DNA of 40,676 nt from Actinomycetota bacterium (GTDB lineage Bacteria > Actinomycetota > Humimicrobiia > JAHJRV01), in contig JAHJRV010000005.1 of assembly GCA_018830725.1 (NCBI GenBank), forward strand, positions 1 through 40,676. Reading direction: 5' to 3'. The notes beneath the pieces were generated by a model. The model did no database searches. It saw only the letters and a list, made by a program, of their open reading frames with translations, and was not told where the DNA came from. The translations under genes and the position numbers were made by a program. Of the stretch, positions 20,487 to 37,054 are shown piece by piece; within the stretch, counting starts at the first letter, position 1; the number at the start of each line of letters is the position of its first letter.

Positions 20487-20631
20487 GAAATTCTTTTAAA
20501 CACAATTTCTATATAACCTCTATTACTTCCGCATTTACAAAATTATTGTTTATCTTGACGATTTTATTCTCCTAACAAAATATGTAAAAAAAATATTGAT
20601 TTTTTTGTGAAATTCTGGTAAAATATCAAAA

Positions 20632-20652
20632 CTTGATAATACTATTATTAAG
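20632..20652. promoter_or_regulatory. HAIR-like HspR operator, site 1
   Basis: CTTGATA-N7-TATTAAG is 21 bp, the layout of the HspR-associated inverted repeat (consensus CTTGAGT-N7-ACTCAAG). The whole 21-mer is nearly palindromic: ten bases on each side of one central base, with one mismatch. It lies just upstream of the dnaK -35 box. hspR is the fourth gene of this operon. Confidence 0.75.
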
Positions 20653-20655
20653 ATA

Positions 20656-20685
20656 CTTGACAATATTATTATAAAGTTTTATAAT
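20656..20685 (+). promoter_or_regulatory. dnaK promoter with overlapping second HAIR-like site
   Basis: TTGACA (20657-20662), exactly 17 nt, then TATAAT (20680-20685) is a perfect sigma-A consensus promoter. A degenerate second HAIR-like site (CTTGACA-N7-TATAAAG, 20656-20676) covers the -35 and most of the spacer, so HspR bound there would block polymerase. The predicted start is near 20692, giving a leader of about 67 nt with AAGGAGG before the dnaK ATG. The rest of the 329-nt gap (20430-20758) holds the duplicated fragment and AT-rich sequence. Confidence 0.8.
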
Positions 20686-20758
20686 TTTGTAAACAAATTT
20701 TGGGTTATTATTAAATATTTGAAATTTTTAAAATAAAAATAAAAAGGAGGATTAAATA

Positions 20759-22600
20759 ATGTCAAAACCAATTGGTATTGATCTAGGTACAACCAACTCA
20801 TGTATTGCTGTATTTGAGGGAGGAGAATCAACAGTTATACCAAATGCGGAAGGTGGTAGGGTAACACCATCAGTTGTAGCTTTTACTAAATCTGGTGAGC
20901 GTTTAGTAGGAATGATAGCAAAAAGACAAGCAATAACAAATCCGGATAAAACTATATCATCTATTAAGAGAAAAATGGGTTCGAAACATAGAGTAAAGAT
21001 AGATGATAAAAATTATTCACCACAAGAAATTTCTGCAATGATATTACAAAAGTTGAAAGCTGATGCAGAAGCATATTTAGGTGAAGAGATAACTGAGGCA
21101 GTAATTACAGTTCCAGCCTATTTTGAGGATAGTCAAAGAAAAGCTACAAAAGAGGCTGGTAAAATAGCAGGCATGAAAGTACTAAGAATAATAAATGAGC
21201 CAACAGCAGCTGCTCTTGCATATGGTTTGGACAAGGAGCAAGATCAGAAAATATTAGTTTTTGATCTTGGTGGAGGAACATTTGATGTTTCAATTTTAGA
21301 TATTGGAGATGGAGTTTTCGAAGTAAAAGCTACAAGTGGGAACAATCTTTTGGGTGGGGATGATTATGATGAGAAAATAGCGGAATGGATAATTTCTGAA
21401 TTCAAAAAAGAACAAGGAATAGACCTTTCTGGTGATAAGATGGCAATGCAAAGACTTAAAGAAGCAGCTGAGAAGGCAAAATGTGAACTTTCTACTACTC
21501 AAACTGCTAATATAAATCTACCTTTTATAACAGCTGATGAGTCAGGACCAAAACACCTTGAGATGACACTTACCAGAGCCAAACTTGTTCAATTGGTTTC
21601 TGATCTAATTGATAAGTGTGTTGGTCCAACAAAAAGAGCAATGGAGGATGCTGGAGTAAAGCCTGGGGATTTAGACCATGTCCTATTAGTTGGAGGGCAA
21701 ACAAGGATGCCCGCAGTAAGAGATTTAGTAAAGAAATTGACAGGGAAAGAACCGAGAAAAGATATAAATCCTGATGAAGTTGTTGCTGTAGGAGCAGCAA
21801 TTCAAGCAGGGGTTTTAAAGGGTGAAGTTAAAGATGTTCTTCTACTGGATGTTACTCCTTTGTCATTAGGTATTGAGACAAAAGGCGGAGTTTTTACTAG
21901 GTTAATTGAGAGAAATACAACAATTCCTACCAAAAAGGGAGAAATATTTTCCACAGCTGAGGATAATCAAACAACTGTTGAGATTCATGTACTTCAAGGT
22001 GAAAGACCAATGGCAGCTTTCAATAAGACATTGGGTAGATTTCAACTTGTAGGAATACCATCAGCTCTAAGAGGAATCCCGCAGATTGAGGTAAATTTTG
22101 ATATTGATGCTAATGGAATTGTTCATGTATTTGCCAAAGATCTTGGAACTGGAAATGAACAGAAAATAACAATAACTTCTTCAGCTGGTATATCTGATGA
22201 TGAGATAGAAAAAATGATGAAGGAAGCTGAAGTTCATGCAGAGGAAGATAAAAATAAAAGAGAAGAAGCTGAGACAAGAAATAATGCAGATAATCTCATA
22301 TATTCAACAGAGAAATCGTTAAGACAATTAGGTGATAAATTACCTTCAGGAGAAAGAAGCAATATAGAATCTACTATTTCAGAATTGAAAAAAGCATTAG
22401 CTGGAACAGATGTTGAAGCTATAAGACAGAAGTCACAAGATTTGATGGATGCCTCTCATAAATTAGCTGAAGCAGTGTATGCCCAGACAACTCAAAAGAC
22501 TACAAAAGCTGAAGAGTCTAAAGGTGAGGAAAAAGTGAAACCAGAAGAAGAGGAAGAAGTCGTGGATGCTGATTATGAAGTTGTGGATGAAAACGAATAA
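20759..22600 (+). CDS. dnaK: Chaperone protein DnaK (Hsp70)
   Basis: The 613-residue Hsp70 has the nucleotide-binding domain at about 1-360, with [17 protein letters not shown], phosphate-2 loop [15 protein letters not shown] and adenosine motif [18 protein letters not shown]. The linker is [12 protein letters not shown], the substrate-binding sheet is at about 370-480 and the helical lid follows. The acidic tail ends [14 protein letters not shown], like the EEVD-type bacterial tails. The ATG start is 7 nt after AAGGAGG. It is the first gene of dnaK-grpE-dnaJ-hspR, under the consensus promoter with HAIR-like operators. It folds and refolds proteins in the cytoplasm with GrpE and DnaJ. Confidence 0.99.
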
Positions 22601-22672: not shown

Positions 22673-23338
22673 ATGTCAGAAGCTAAAAAGAAAAATGAAT
22701 CGTATTCAAAAATTAGTTATGGCAAAATTCTATTTAAAAATAATGGAAAAAGCAATGAGAAGACAAGTAAAAATCGATCTCAAAAAATCAAGCCAGAATC
22801 AATTAAAAAAAAGAAGGTAAAAAGAAAAAAAACTAAGAGTGAGATAAAGTTGAATAAAAAGATTGTAGAATTAAAAAAAGAATTAGATGAGAAAGACAAT
22901 AAACTAAATGATTATATTGATACTCTGCAGAGACTACAGGCAGAATTTGAAAACTATAGAAAGAGGATTCTAAAAGAACAGAGTAAATCCAAAACATTAG
23001 CTAATATGGATTTAATAAAGAAGTTGCTCCCCATACTTGATGATCTTGAAAAGGCAATAATTTCTAAAGAAAATAAAGATGAAGTTAAAGCCATTATTGA
23101 TGGTATAGATATTATATATAAGGAATTTGATCAGATATTAAATAAAGAGGGGGTAAGAGAAGTCTATTCTGAAGGAGAAATATTTGATCCAAGGTGTCAT
23201 CATGCAATAATGCAAATCGAAAGTGATAAACACGAGGAAGGGACAGTACTTGAAGTATTACAGAAAGGATACCTTCTGAATAACACATTACTAAGGCCCG
23301 CAACTGTAAAAGTTTCAAAAAAAACGGACAAGTCCTAA
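22673..23338 (+). CDS. grpE: Nucleotide exchange factor GrpE
   Basis: The 221-residue protein begins with a Lys-rich, low-complexity N-terminus (about 1-60). A long helix follows (about 63-110; LQRLQAEFENYRKRILKEQ is the core GrpE signature). The four-helix and beta-wing domain has LLPILDDLEKAI, EGEIFDPRCHHAIMQIE and the closing YLLNNTLLRPATVKVSK. It releases ADP from DnaK. The basic N-terminal extension is longer than in many GrpE proteins. The ATG follows GAGGAGA. It is 72 nt after dnaK. Confidence 0.97.
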   Translation: MSEAKKKNESYSKISYGKILFKNNGKSNEKTSKNRSQKIKPESIKKKKVKRKKTKSEIKLNKKIVELKKELDEKDNKLNDYIDTLQRLQAEFENYRKRILKEQSKSKTLANMDLIKKLLPILDDLEKAIISKENKDEVKAIIDGIDIIYKEFDQILNKEGVREVYSEGEIFDPRCHHAIMQIESDKHEEGTVLEVLQKGYLLNNTLLRPATVKVSKKTDKS

Positions 23339-23382: not shown

Positions 23383-24507
23383 TTGGAATTTAAGGATTAT
23401 TACAAAATTCTGGGTGTGGATAAAAACGCAACACAGGATGAGATAAAGAAAGTATATAGAAAGTTAGCTCAGAAATACCATCCTGATATTAACCAAAATA
23501 ATAAAGATGCAGAGGAAAAATTTAAAGAAATTTCAGTTGCATACTCAGTTTTAGGAGATAAAGAGAAGAGAAAGAGATATGATGAACAGGTTAGAACGTA
23601 CAGTCAGGGACCTTTTGGATTTCAAGCTAAAGGATTTAGACCAGAGGATTTTCAAACAATTTGGAACTTTCAGGAATTTAGTGAATCTTCAGCCTTCGAG
23701 AGCATATTTGACTTATTTAAAACTGGGGGTGTAAGAAACAGAAGAACTAAAGCGCCAAAGAGAGGAAATGACATTACATATAAAATAAATCTCTCCTTTG
23801 ACGAAGCAATGAAAGGTGTAACTACAAAAATAAATGTAAGCGCTAATTTAGCATGTACGAAGTGCGAAGGTGCGGGAACTGAGCCAGGGACTTTTCCAAT
23901 AACATGTCCAAATTGCAATGGAAGGGGAGTAGTATCGAGAAATCAGGGCTTTTTTAGTATAAGTCAAACATGTCCTCGATGTTTAGGTCAAGGTAGAATA
24001 ATAAAGCACCCTTGCACTAAATGTAAAGGTATAGGGAGGGAGAGGAGAGTAAGAAAATTAACTATAAAAATCCCAGCTGGAGTGAAAAATGGTTCAAAAA
24101 TAAGGTTTAAGGGTATGGGGGAATCTGGTGACAAAGGAAGTCCATCTGGAGATTTATATATTATTACTAAAGTAAAATCGCATCCCATTTTTAAAAGAAG
24201 AAATAGTGATATTTTAATAGATTTACCTATTACCTTCACTGAAGCTGCTTTAGGAACAAATATTGAAATTCCAACCCCAAATAGAAAAATTTCATTAAAG
24301 ATTCCAGCTGGTTCACAAAGCGGGAAACTGTTTAGAATAAGAGGTAAGGGAGCACCAAAATTAAAAGGAAGTGGCAACGGAGATTTTTTTATAAAACTTA
24401 AAGTTGTAACTCCCAACAAGCTTTCAGTAAAGGAAAAAAGATTATTTATGGACCTTGAGAGGATTAGCAAATCAAATCCAAGGGAAAAAATATTTAAATA
24501 TCATTAA
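23383..24507 (+). CDS. dnaJ: Chaperone protein DnaJ (Hsp40, type I)
   Basis: The 374 residues start with a J-domain (about 4-68; KYHPDINQ contains the HPD motif). The linker (about 70-125) is richer in Phe than Gly. The zinc domain has all four CxxCxGxG repeats ([32 protein letters not shown]), and beta-barrel domains follow ([34 protein letters not shown]). It delivers unfolded clients to DnaK and stimulates its ATPase. TTG is the start, with a weak GGTGA site. Together with grpE and hspR it keeps the actinobacterial gene order. Confidence 0.97.
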
Positions 24508-24567: not shown

Positions 24568-24957
24568 ATGAACAGGGATAAAAAGAAACCAGTATATATA
24601 ATAAGCATAGCTGCTAAACTAGCTCAAGTACATCCTCAAACTCTAAGATTATATGAGAGAAGAAGATTAGTGAAGCCCGTAAGAACGTCTACTAACATAC
24701 GTTTATATTCAGAGGAAAATATTGAGCAGACTATATATGTTCACGAATTAACTCAAAACCTTGGGATAAATTTAGCAGGTGTTAGAAGGATTTTAGATTT
24801 AGAAAAAGAACTTGAGTTAGCTGAATTAGATCTTAAAAAAGCACAAATGGAATTGGAAAGACTAACTAAAGAAATGGAAAGAGAAATAGAAAATGTTCGC
24901 AAAAGTTTCAAACATGAAATTGTTCCATTTTCTTCTCGTGATATAGAACCTATTTAA
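24568..24957 (+). CDS. hspR: HspR, MerR-family heat-shock repressor
   Basis: The 129-residue protein has an N-terminal MerR helix-turn-helix (about 10-75), with AAKLAQVHPQTLRLYERRRL as recognition segment and wing, then RLYSEENIEQTIYVHELTQ. A coiled coil follows (about 85-118). The HPQTLRLYER pattern with NIRLYS is the HspR branch. HspR binds HAIR sites and represses dnaK operons in Streptomyces, Mycobacterium, Helicobacter and others, with DnaK as co-repressor in Streptomyces. Here it ends the dnaK operon whose promoter carries HAIR-like sites, so autoregulation is the straightforward reading. Its 3' end faces the DUF72 gene, 13 nt away. Confidence 0.94.
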   Translation: MNRDKKKPVYIISIAAKLAQVHPQTLRLYERRRLVKPVRTSTNIRLYSEENIEQTIYVHELTQNLGINLAGVRRILDLEKELELAELDLKKAQMELERLTKEMEREIENVRKSFKHEIVPFSSRDIEPI

Positions 24958-24970
24958 TAGATGAAAGAAA

Positions 24971-25738
24971 TTATAGCAGGGAAAGCAAGAGATTAGCAGC
25001 CTTTACAGCCTTTGATTTATAATGATTATTAAAATAAATCATAGTTTTAATAGCTTTTTCCTCTAGTTCCTTTATTTTAGGAACCCATTCCAATAATTCA
25101 TCTTGCTTGTATTCGTAATCATACCTCTCATATGCCTTCTTGTGATGCCACCATTTTTGAGAATTTCTTCCATGAAATCTGACATAAGCAATATCAGAGG
25201 TTATTTTAGCAACAGGAGGAATCAAACCCCTTAGTTTTGGTTGGTCAACACAACAAAATCCTAATTCATTCTGTTCAAGGAAATCAAATGTTTCATCATT
25301 TATCCAGGAAGTGTTTCTGAATTCTATAACCAGGGGGATATCAATCATATTATCTCTTAAATGTTTTAAATAATCTAAGTTGTAACGATCAAGCTTAAAA
25401 GACCAGGGAAATTGTGCTAAAACACAAGCTAACTGATCTCTTTCAATTAATGGAGATATACCTTTTATAAAACCATTATAATCCTTGGACTTAGCTTTTC
25501 TTTCATGTGTCATTAAGCTGTTTGCTTTTACTGAAAAAACAAAATCATCAGGTACTTTATGAGCCATCCTGTTGATTATGTATGGATTTGGCATTCTATA
25601 ATATGTAAAATTTATTTCAGTTGTTTTAAAATTTTTAGAATAGAATTTTAACATATCAGATTTATTTATATCAGTTGGATAATAATTTCCCTTCCAATCC
25701 TCATAGCTATAACCAGATGTTCCTATTAATATACTCAC
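24971..25738 (-). CDS. DUF72 family protein (YecE-like)
   Basis: The 255-residue TIM-barrel-like protein has the start ILIGTSGYSYEDWKGNYYP, the body FKTTEINFTYYRMPN, FVFSVKANSLMTHERK, and late YVRFHGRNSQKWWHHK and MIYFNNHYKSKAVKAA. These are the conserved elements of DUF72 (YecE). No biochemical role is established for this family. It is convergent with hspR (13-nt gap) and divergent from the cooC region. The minus-strand start has GGAGGTATC upstream (25741-25749), a good ribosome-binding site. Confidence 0.93.
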   Translation of the reverse strand: MSILIGTSGYSYEDWKGNYYPTDINKSDMLKFYSKNFKTTEINFTYYRMPNPYIINRMAHKVPDDFVFSVKANSLMTHERKAKSKDYNGFIKGISPLIERDQLACVLAQFPWSFKLDRYNLDYLKHLRDNMIDIPLVIEFRNTSWINDETFDFLEQNELGFCCVDQPKLRGLIPPVAKITSDIAYVRFHGRNSQKWWHHKKAYERYDYEYKQDELLEWVPKIKELEEKAIKTMIYFNNHYKSKAVKAANLLLSLL

Positions 25739-33572: not shown

Positions 33573-33608
33573 AATAGGTATTTTATAGAAAGAGTAAGGG
33601 TGAAATTT

Positions 33609-35021
33609 ATGGATAGACAAGAATATTTAAGCAGGATACCTAAGGTTGATAACATATTATCAATTCCTGATACTAAAAAGCTTTTAGAAAAGTTTCCCAG
33701 AAATATTGTAGTAGAAGCAATAAGAACCGTTCTTGAAGAATTAAGGCAATCCATATCTGAAGCGAAAGAAGAAGAACTTGAATCTATAACCATTGATTCA
33801 GAGGATCTTATACCAATAATTTCTAAACTTGTAGAAAAAATTATGACTCCAAGCTTGAGGAAAGTGATAAACGCTACAGGAGTTATTATTCATACAAATT
33901 TAGGAAGAGCTCCACTTTCTGAGCAAGCACTCAATTCATTAAGCAAAATATCAGAAGGATATTCAAACCTTGAGTATGATCTTATTAAAGGTGAAAGAGG
34001 CGACAGGCAGATGCATGTAAAAGCTCTTCTTACAACACTAACCAATGCTGAGGATGCAATGGTTGTAAATAACAATGCTGCTGCTGTTCTTTTAGCATTA
34101 AACAGTATAGCTAAGGATAATGAGGTAATAATTTCAAGGGGTCAGTTAGTAGAGATAGGAGGTTCTTTTAGAATTCCTGATGTTATAAGTTCGAGTGGAG
34201 CTATAATTAGAGAAGTTGGTACCACCAACAAAACAAGATTATTAGACTATCAAAAAGCAATCACTGATGAAACAGCTATTATCTTGAGAGTTCATACTTC
34301 CAATTACAGGATTGTAGGATTTGCTGAGCAAGTAAGCTTATCTGATTTAGTTAAATTGGGGCATCAGTATAATATTCCCATTATGGATGATTTGGGAAGC
34401 GGTGTCTTATTGGAACTTGATGTTGAAGGTTTTGAAGATGAACCAATTGTGAAAAGCAGTATAGAAGCTGGTGCTGATATCGTTACATTTTCTGGGGATA
34501 AGATATTAGGAGGCCCCCAAGCAGGAATAATATTAGGAAAAACTGAATTTATACAGAAAATGAGAGTAAATCCTCTGACAAGAGCTCTTAGAGTAGACAA
34601 AATGATACTTGCTGCACTTGAAGCTACATTGAGATTATATCTTGACCCAAAGAAGGCTAAGGCGCAAATTCCAGTAACTAAAATGATAACTTATCCTATT
34701 AATGAAATTGCACGTATGGCAAGAAATATTGAAAAAAAATTAGTAGAAGAATTAGGTAGCAAATGTGATATTGATATTAAAAAGGAATTTTCGAAGGTTG
34801 GTGGTGGTGCGTTGCCACTTTTGAATTTAAAAACAAGAGTAGTTACACTATTACCAAGGACAATATCACCAAATAAGTTGGCATCAAAACTAAGATTATT
34901 GTCAATACCCATAATAGTAAGAATAGATAAGGATTTAATGATTATTGATCCAAGAACTCTTCTACCAGGTGAGGATGAAATAGTAGTAAATTCAGTAAAG
35001 GAGGTAATTCTTAGTGAATAA
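33609..35021 (+). CDS. selA: L-seryl-tRNA(Sec) selenium transferase
   Basis: The 470-residue PLP enzyme converts Ser-tRNA(Sec) to Sec-tRNA(Sec) with selenophosphate. Motifs include VINATGVIIHTNLGRAPLSE, the N-terminal signature, VVNNNAAAVLLALN and IMDDLGSGVL, and the PLP lysine near residue 298 in FSGDKILGGPQAG. It ends with PRTLLPGEDEIVV. I chose ATG 33609, with AAGGGTG upstream. A GTG at 33600 would add three residues. Length is normal. The gene overlaps selB by 8 nt. selD, which makes selenophosphate, is not in this window and must lie elsewhere. Confidence 0.97.
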   Translation: MDRQEYLSRIPKVDNILSIPDTKKLLEKFPRNIVVEAIRTVLEELRQSISEAKEEELESITIDSEDLIPIISKLVEKIMTPSLRKVINATGVIIHTNLGRAPLSEQALNSLSKISEGYSNLEYDLIKGERGDRQMHVKALLTTLTNAEDAMVVNNNAAAVLLALNSIAKDNEVIISRGQLVEIGGSFRIPDVISSSGAIIREVGTTNKTRLLDYQKAITDETAIILRVHTSNYRIVGFAEQVSLSDLVKLGHQYNIPIMDDLGSGVLLELDVEGFEDEPIVKSSIEAGADIVTFSGDKILGGPQAGIILGKTEFIQKMRVNPLTRALRVDKMILAALEATLRLYLDPKKAKAQIPVTKMITYPINEIARMARNIEKKLVEELGSKCDIDIKKEFSKVGGGALPLLNLKTRVVTLLPRTISPNKLASKLRLLSIPIIVRIDKDLMIIDPRTLLPGEDEIVVNSVKEVILSE

Positions 35022-36957
35022 AAACTCCTATCCTTCAGTCATAATAGGGACAGCAGGTCATATAGACCATGGAAAAACTGAGCTTATAAAGCAAATAACA
35101 GGTATAGATACAGATAGACTAATAGAAGAAAAACAGAGGGGTATGTCAATAGATATAGGTTTCGCTCCCCTGGTTTTTTCTTCAGGTAAAATTGTTGGAG
35201 TAATAGATGTTCCAGGACATGAGAAATTTGTAAAAAATATGATGGTAGGTGCATCAGGAATTGATATTGGTCTTTTGGTGATTGCTGCTGATGATGGAAT
35301 AATGCCACAGACTATTGAACACTTTGATATATTAAGACTTTTAAATATTAATAAGCTATTGGTAGTGATTACAAAAATGGATTTAGTAGATGAAGAGACA
35401 GTAGATATAGTTGAAAGTGAAATTAAAGAACTTTTAAAAAATAGTCCTTATAGAGATGCAGCAATAGTTAGGACATCTTCAAAGACCAGAGAAGGGATAG
35501 AGGAAGTAGTTAAAGAGTTAGAAAAACTAACCTCATTAAAATTTACAAAAGATATTAATTTGCCAATTAGACTTCCAATAGATCGTGTCTTTACTCTTTC
35601 TGGAATAGGTACTGTAATTACTGGTACATTATGGTCAGGAAAAGTAAAATCTGGTGATGAAATAGAGATACTTCCTAATAAAATAAGATGTAGAATCAGA
35701 AATGTTCAGGTCTTTAACGAAGATGTAAAAGAAGCACTTGCTGGACAAAGAGTTGCATTAAATTTAATAGGAGTTAAAAAGAATCAGTTGAGTAGAGGAG
35801 ATGTCGTTTTAAAACCTGGATATTTAACCCCAACTTCTTTATTAGATACCCATATTGAAATTTTATCAAATCAAAAGAGTAGCCTTAAGTCAGGAAGAAA
35901 AGTGAGTTTGCATCATGGAACGAGAGAGATTATAGCCAAAGCCTCTCTGCTTGGTGTGGGAGAGATAAAACCTGGAGAAACAGGTTATGTGAGATTCAAA
36001 TTGGACTACCCATTAGTTGTTAAAAATTATGATAAATTTATAATAAGAAATTCATCTCTACTAAGAACAATGGGGGGCGGGTTAATACTTCTCTCACATC
36101 CATCTAAAAAAAGAATAAAGAGAGAAAAAATTATAGATAAACTTAATATACTTTATGCTGGAAATAAAGATGAAATAATATCTTTGTGGCTTAAGGAAAA
36201 TTATCCGGAACCATTAACTACAGGCGAAATATCGAAAAAGTCAGAAATTTCAGTTGAGGAAGTAGAAGATGTAATAAAAAAGTTATTGCATTTAAATAAA
36301 GTTATTAATATGTCAACTGGTGTATCAATATCTGATAAACCACAATATCTTTTATTAACTGATTTTCAAAGACTTAGACAGGAAATGCTTTCCTATTTGG
36401 AAGAATATCACTTAGAAAATATCTTAAAAATTGGAATTGATACTGAAATTTTAAGAAAAAAAATATTTTTCACAATTCCAAAAACAAAGTATGAGACATT
36501 GTTACAAAAATTTCAGCAAGATAAAATTATAATTAAAGAAGGCTCAAAAATATTGTCCCCTCTTATATCCTATGAGCTAAGTGGAAAGGAAAAACAGAAT
36601 TATTTATTAGTAAAAAATAGTATAGTAAGTGGAAAGTTTTCACCACCAGATGTGAAAGAGTTATCTAAAAATATCAATCTAAGTATTGAAGAAGTTAACC
36701 AGATTCTAAATATTTTAAAAAGAGAAAAAAAGGTTATTAAATTAAAAGACGGACTTTTTTTTGCAACAGAATCATTTGAAAAAGCAAAAGATAAATTAAT
36801 AGAAACAATTAATAAAAATAGAAAAATTACATTAGCTAAATTTAGGGATGTTTTAAAGACTTCAAGAAAATATTCAGAAGCATTATTGGAATATTTTGAC
36901 AAAGAAGGTTTAACAAAAAGAGTAGAAGATTACAGGATTCTTAAAAAGAATGACTGA
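35014..36957 (+). CDS. selB: Selenocysteine-specific elongation factor
   Basis: The 647-residue EF-Tu-like GTPase has G1 AGHIDHGKTELIKQITG (about 14-30), G3 DVPGHEKFVKNMMVGA, and G4 TKMD. Domains II-III follow (about 180-365; VFTLSGIGTVITGTLWSG). The C-terminal half (about 380-645) contains winged-helix repeats that bind the SECIS hairpin, such as TTGEISKKSEISVEEVEDVI and the final KYSEALLEYFDKEGL. The start is GTG, 6 nt after AAAGGAGGT, inside selA. The stop is 1 nt before the tRNA(Sec). It delivers Sec-tRNA to in-frame UGA codons. Confidence 0.97.
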   Translation: MNKNSYPSVIIGTAGHIDHGKTELIKQITGIDTDRLIEEKQRGMSIDIGFAPLVFSSGKIVGVIDVPGHEKFVKNMMVGASGIDIGLLVIAADDGIMPQTIEHFDILRLLNINKLLVVITKMDLVDEETVDIVESEIKELLKNSPYRDAAIVRTSSKTREGIEEVVKELEKLTSLKFTKDINLPIRLPIDRVFTLSGIGTVITGTLWSGKVKSGDEIEILPNKIRCRIRNVQVFNEDVKEALAGQRVALNLIGVKKNQLSRGDVVLKPGYLTPTSLLDTHIEILSNQKSSLKSGRKVSLHHGTREIIAKASLLGVGEIKPGETGYVRFKLDYPLVVKNYDKFIIRNSSLLRTMGGGLILLSHPSKKRIKREKIIDKLNILYAGNKDEIISLWLKENYPEPLTTGEISKKSEISVEEVEDVIKKLLHLNKVINMSTGVSISDKPQYLLLTDFQRLRQEMLSYLEEYHLENILKIGIDTEILRKKIFFTIPKTKYETLLQKFQQDKIIIKEGSKILSPLISYELSGKEKQNYLLVKNSIVSGKFSPPDVKELSKNINLSIEEVNQILNILKREKKVIKLKDGLFFATESFEKAKDKLIETINKNRKITLAKFRDVLKTSRKYSEALLEYFDKEGLTKRVEDYRILKKND

Positions 36958-36958
36958 A

Positions 36959-37054
36959 GGAGGTGTAACTGTTCTGGTGGGCAGCTCGGTCTTCAAAACC
37001 GTTGTGGGGAGTAAGTGCTTCCCAGGTAGGTTCGATTCCTATCCACCTCCGCCA
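36959..37054 (+). tRNA. selC: tRNA-Sec (anticodon UCA)
   Basis: This 96-nt gene has an encoded CCA end. The acceptor GGAGGTG pairs with CACCTCC, followed by discriminator G and CCA. The anticodon loop CTTCAAA, on a CGGT/ACCG stem, gives anticodon UCA. The long variable arm has a 7-bp stem (TGGGGAG/CTTCCCA). The T arm GTAGG-TTCGATT-CCTAT extends the acceptor, as in the 13-bp coaxial stack of bacterial tRNA(Sec). It starts one base after the selB stop. Confidence 0.95.

Follow-up and report, generated by a model that had tools for sequence, protein, structure and literature searches.

A dnaK-grpE-dnaJ-hspR operon preceded by a degenerate, tandem pair of HAIR-like sites in an uncultured low-GC lineage

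The HspR operator of the dnaK operon in Streptomyces and relatives is HAIR, an inverted repeat of the form CTTGAGT-N7-ACTCAAG. The locus described here comes from an actinobacterial genome (G000) and combines an hspR gene with a strong promoter overlapped by a sequence that resembles HAIR in part, and it raises the question of whether HspR controls the operon and, if so, through which site. Throughout, the window is the whole stretch of DNA that was analysed, 40,676 nucleotides in length.

The operon has the order dnaK-grpE-dnaJ-hspR, with all four genes on the forward strand. DnaK (20759–22600; 613 amino acids) matches NF001413 at 971.6 bits, above the cut-off, GrpE (22673–23338; 221 amino acids) matches PF01025 at 1e-48, and DnaJ (23383–24507; 374 amino acids) matches TIGR02349 above its cut-off. 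The fourth gene (24568–24957) encodes a MerR family protein of 129 amino acids to which, of the NCBIfam models, the two for HspR fit best, so that gene order and protein family matches bear out its earlier naming as hspR. The two models score 100.8 and 104.9 bits against this product, and the next MerR model scores 39 bits. With NF047375, the 100.8 bits of the protein here and the 101.8 bits of its counterpart in the congeneric genome G003 both fall just under the curated cut-off of 105; sister HspRs reach 116.9 and 128.3 bits with an NCBIfam HspR model. Identity is 55% to the HspR of G004, a genome of the same class, and 50% to that of G040, from the same phylum. In the product of this gene, the recognition segment HPQTLRLYER is exactly that seen in HspRs whose genomes have clear HAIRs, and the protein therefore gives no sign of a shift in specificity. 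Past the hspR stop codon, and separated from it by 13 bp, lies a DUF72 gene in convergent orientation (window 24971–25738), and elsewhere in the window positions 33600–37050 hold selenocysteine machinery, namely selA, selB and a tRNA-Sec (36959–37050).

Upstream of dnaK lies a perfect sigma-A-type promoter, TTGACA-17-TATAAT, here designated P2 (20657–20685, forward strand; predicted start near 20692). The window, both strands considered, has no other exact consensus promoter so spaced, and P2 was reproduced in none of 3000 dinucleotide shuffles of the 329-bp intergenic region (19% GC), on which the chance tests were based. The earlier note had given its letters and coordinates correctly, as it had those of two CTTGA-type 21-mers; the 54-nucleotide segment that it described as lying upstream of dnaK is likewise real, but it does not adjoin the gene, as its end, the −10 element of P2, is 73 bp upstream of the dnaK ATG at 20759.

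The first of the 21-mers, site 1, reads CTTGATA-ATACTAT-TATTAAG (20632–20652, forward strand) and is the upstream copy of a repeat. The second, site 2, reads CTTGACA-ATATTAT-TATAAAG (20656–20676, forward strand) and overlaps the −35 element and spacer of P2. Together they make up a 24-bp tandem repeat (20631–20676, forward strand; 1.9 copies, 86% match), and the pair apparently arose by one tandem duplication. Two matches to CTTGA-N11-TNAAG were seen in none of the 3000 shuffles and one match in 0.17%; a tandem identity of 19/22 at a period of 24 was also never reached, and with the period free to vary from 15 to 40, 0.7% of a separate 300 shuffles reached it. The near-perfect palindrome that had been claimed for site 1 does pair at 9 of 10 base pairs, but this is unremarkable, being found in 15% of the AT-rich shuffles, and agreement with canonical HAIR at 9 of 14 positions was reached by 46% of them. 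These results lead to the conclusion that the sites are non-random as a CTTGA-bearing tandem repeat, and not as HAIR matches alone.

What the sites hold of HAIR is the CTTGA left arm and the 7-7-7 layout at the dnaK promoter. The loss is confined to the right arm, from which most of the GC letters have gone; the left arm is intact, and in site 2 it coincides with the −35 element of P2. Neither right arm, TATTAAG or TATAAAG, is of the ACTCAAG type, each agreeing with it at 4 of 7 positions (chance 0.08), and we term the sites HAIR-like rather than HAIR for this reason. A matrix built from 21 dnaK-promoter sites from outside the genus, those of G004 and G040 included, gives 6.0 bits to site 2 and 2.7 bits to site 1 (better strand), compared with 25.6 bits for G004 and 18.2 bits for G040, both of which are training sites. 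Within the window, site 2 ranks 7th and site 1 46th.

The position of site 2 has clear counterparts among relatives. In G004, CTTGACA-ATCATAT-ACTCAAG lies across the −35 element and 17-bp spacer of a promoter directly before dnaK, and in G040 the same place is taken by GTTGATA-CAGACGT-ACTCAAG; in both genomes hspR is in the operon, as here. They differ in that the site is single and its ACTCAAG right arm intact, in the presence of clpB after hspR and in the possession of HrcA. The same design recurs in many genomes with HspR from other phyla. Among the further HspR genomes compared (actinobacterial, acidobacterial, armatimonad, Aquificota and others), the usual best match before dnaK is [CAG]TTGACA-N7-ACTCAAG-like. 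The Streptomyces-type system shares with this locus its gene order, a MerR-type HspR with the same recognition segment and a 21-bp 7-7-7 element at the dnaK promoter, whereas here the right arms lack ACTCAAG, the sequence is very AT-rich, two copies stand in tandem 24 bp apart, and clpB and lon are without a site. Of the proposal that the 21-mers are HAIR-like operators of the HspR type, the position of site 2 is thus upheld, by G004, G040 and the shared recognition segment, while the match in sequence is weak for both copies and site 1 is doubtful.

Besides its own genome, the genus is represented by G001, G002 and G003, and the operon is present in G001 and G003, the DnaK of both being 97% identical to that of the window. 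In G002, which is about 90% complete, dnaK and hspR were not found in the assembly, having either been lost or lain on a missing contig. Across the three genomes with the operon, P2 together with site 2 shows 0–1 differences, compared with 11–21% at the 4-fold sites of dnaK, and the right arm TATAAAG is fixed, yet scores near background. This conservation, in just three close genomes, is explained in part by the promoter that the site overlaps. Site 1 is altered at one position in G001 and at four in G003, whose copy has CTTTATG for CTTGATA and TATTAAA for TATTAAG, both key G positions being gone; because of these four changes it is to be regarded as unprotected across the genus. The conservation in relatives on which the operator proposal leaned is accordingly found for site 2, and by position also in G004 and G040, but not for site 1.

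These observations give rise to the main rival to a reading in which HspR closes P2, namely that HspR has largely ceased to bind at dnaK or binds there more weakly, the CTTGA of site 2 persisting as part of a −35 element and the tandem copy being a neutral duplication. A right arm that matches HAIR no better than chance, the low matrix scores of both sites and the decay of site 1 in G003 are all in keeping with this, as is a parallel at groES, where a CIRCE element is kept though no HrcA was found. Against it, each of the three genus genomes in which hspR was detected has an intact copy, with the recognition segment unchanged, and the C before TTGACA and the spacer letters are kept as well as the promoter. 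Moreover, HspR of Campylobacter jejuni, whose genome is AT-rich, binds several HAIR-like sites in which the left arm is conserved and the right arm AT-rich and similarly degenerate, and low-affinity sites are filled cooperatively beside a stronger one (PMC7464140). In Helicobacter pylori, HspR binds about 70–80 bp around one HAIR-like repeat (PMC6102357). The sequence upstream of dnaK would be compatible with binding of this kind, and the likeness to C. jejuni takes in an AT-rich genome, several HAIR-like sites at one promoter and the same asymmetry between arms (PMC7464140); the two differ in that C. jejuni has HrcA and more HspR targets, whereas the genus here has no detected HrcA and a candidate site at dnaK only. 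The same C. jejuni sites make plausible the earlier suggestion of an AT-rich operator adapted to a low-GC genome (PMC7464140), which is nonetheless not distinguished from simple erosion. On balance, we consider an operator eroded to the point of losing most of its HspR binding to be unlikely.

The reading that we consider probable is that of a heat-shock operon autoregulated by HspR, with its operator on P2, and site 2 is likely, judging by its position and its conservation in the genus, to be the main HspR operator. The genes, the promoter, the tandem repeat and a position in common with the HAIRs of relatives can all be read directly from the DNA, and from them we infer HspR binding and repression. 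DnaK is a co-repressor of HspR in Streptomyces and Mycobacterium. P2, as a strong housekeeping promoter, would drive the four genes. While the temperature is normal, HspR would lie on site 2 over the −35 element and spacer, DnaK being its probable co-repressor, and so block RNA polymerase; the occupation of DnaK by unfolded proteins would release HspR and induce the operon. Against this reading, no second target gene backs the motif, both sites rank low with the HAIR matrix, the right-arm agreement is near chance, site 1 is not conserved in G003, and the overlapping promoter accounts for part of the conservation of site 2. The circuit would be an ordinary one, its operator eroded, AT-rich and apparently duplicated.

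A role for site 1 may be sought in a second predicted promoter upstream of P2, which was absent from the earlier note. Designated P1, it reads TTGATT-17-TAAAAT (20596–20624, forward strand), agrees with the consensus at 9 of 12 positions and has an extended −10 element (TGG before TAAAAT). Its predicted start point coincides with the beginning of site 1, where a second, weaker HspR dimer may bind. One variant, compatible with HspR acting at P2, is that P1 and P2 are each closed by an HspR site of their own, with two-stage induction through cooperative binding. P1 is kept in the three genus genomes with 1–2 differences per 29 bp, and in G003 the sequence upstream of its −35 element diverges completely while that from the −35 element onward is conserved; this conservation and the extended −10 element would favour such an arrangement, as would the tandem placing of the sites and the cooperative filling of several adjacent sites by HspR of C. 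jejuni (PMC7464140). However, promoter-like matches in the scanned region are no commoner than in shuffles (25 compared with 23 expected), and site 1 is degraded in G003. P1 may act as a promoter, judging from its sequence, but the dual arrangement is a tentative proposal that we find possible rather than probable.

A further question is whether HspR has targets other than its own operon. A wider regulon taking in clpB, lon or similar genes had been suggested, and the scan did not bear this out: no HAIR was found upstream of clpB, lon, clpC or groES. The upstream region of clpB itself differs within the genus (loci L153 and L152), with a gap of about 200 bp after the preceding gene in G000 and a clpB that almost directly adjoins its neighbour in G003. 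Across the genome of the window, CTTGA-N11-TNAAG gave 27 strand-wise matches compared with 15 for a reversed control, nearly all of them genic; the intergenic ones besides dnaK are at non-chaperone promoters, one of them preceding a gene identified as ATP-synthase-gamma-like from its sequence rather than by a search, and another preceding the gene of a protein that looks secreted and has no Pfam match. When CTTGAYA-N7-TATNAAG was allowed one mismatch, dnaK was matched exactly in three genomes and the rest, among the matches inspected, were genic or at non-chaperone promoters, one of which was additional to those already found. In G000, G001 and G003 no Hsp20 was detected; G002, unlike these three, has two Hsp20 genes. 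The HspR regulon is likely to consist of the dnaK operon alone.

The same scans bear on the notion that a different regulator, or no regulator, binds the sites and that HspR acts elsewhere in the genome. By score the motif is indeed not HAIR, yet hspR is in the same operon, orthologs have their operator at the same position, and no better HspR site was found elsewhere by the pattern scans among the matches inspected; this alternative strikes us as very improbable. Control of dnaK may take another form elsewhere in the class. In family f3 (L202–L211), a short, divergent MerR family gene precedes dnaK. The one such regulator tested was rejected as an HspR, having NSRTLYYYE in place of HPQTLRLYE, no match to an HspR model at E ≤ 1e-15 and no HAIR at its locus. 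Several f3 genomes also have a conserved palindrome, TTTTCACTTAAAGTGAAAA, about 130–200 bp upstream of the MerR family gene, and gene and palindrome may constitute a different regulator-operator pair for dnaK.

HspR extends here to an uncultured low-GC lineage, in which clear HAIRs, still seen at the same position in the class and phylum, have given way to a degenerate tandem pair, making this a compact case of operator drift. As HrcA was not found, HspR is the only known heat-shock repressor identified in the genus. Three HrcA models detected no HrcA in any of the four genus genomes, whereas 27 of the 41 genomes searched, among them G004 and G040, have HrcA above the family cut-off; absence by chance from all four assemblies (65–96% complete) is unlikely. 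A more elaborate scenario, which we think quite unlikely, is that HspR changed in step with its operator towards an AT-rich half-site, the tandem duplicate making up for weak right arms at both promoters, once HrcA had been lost and CIRCE retained at groES. CIRCE itself is present upstream of groES in all four genus genomes (L250, at G000:C94:109319-109345, and L251, L252 and L253), with 0, 0, 1 and 2 mismatches and no control matches in these genomes. A genus seemingly without HrcA that keeps CIRCE at groES raises the question of what the element does without its repressor; in its RNA form, CIRCE folds into a strong stem-loop in the versions tested.
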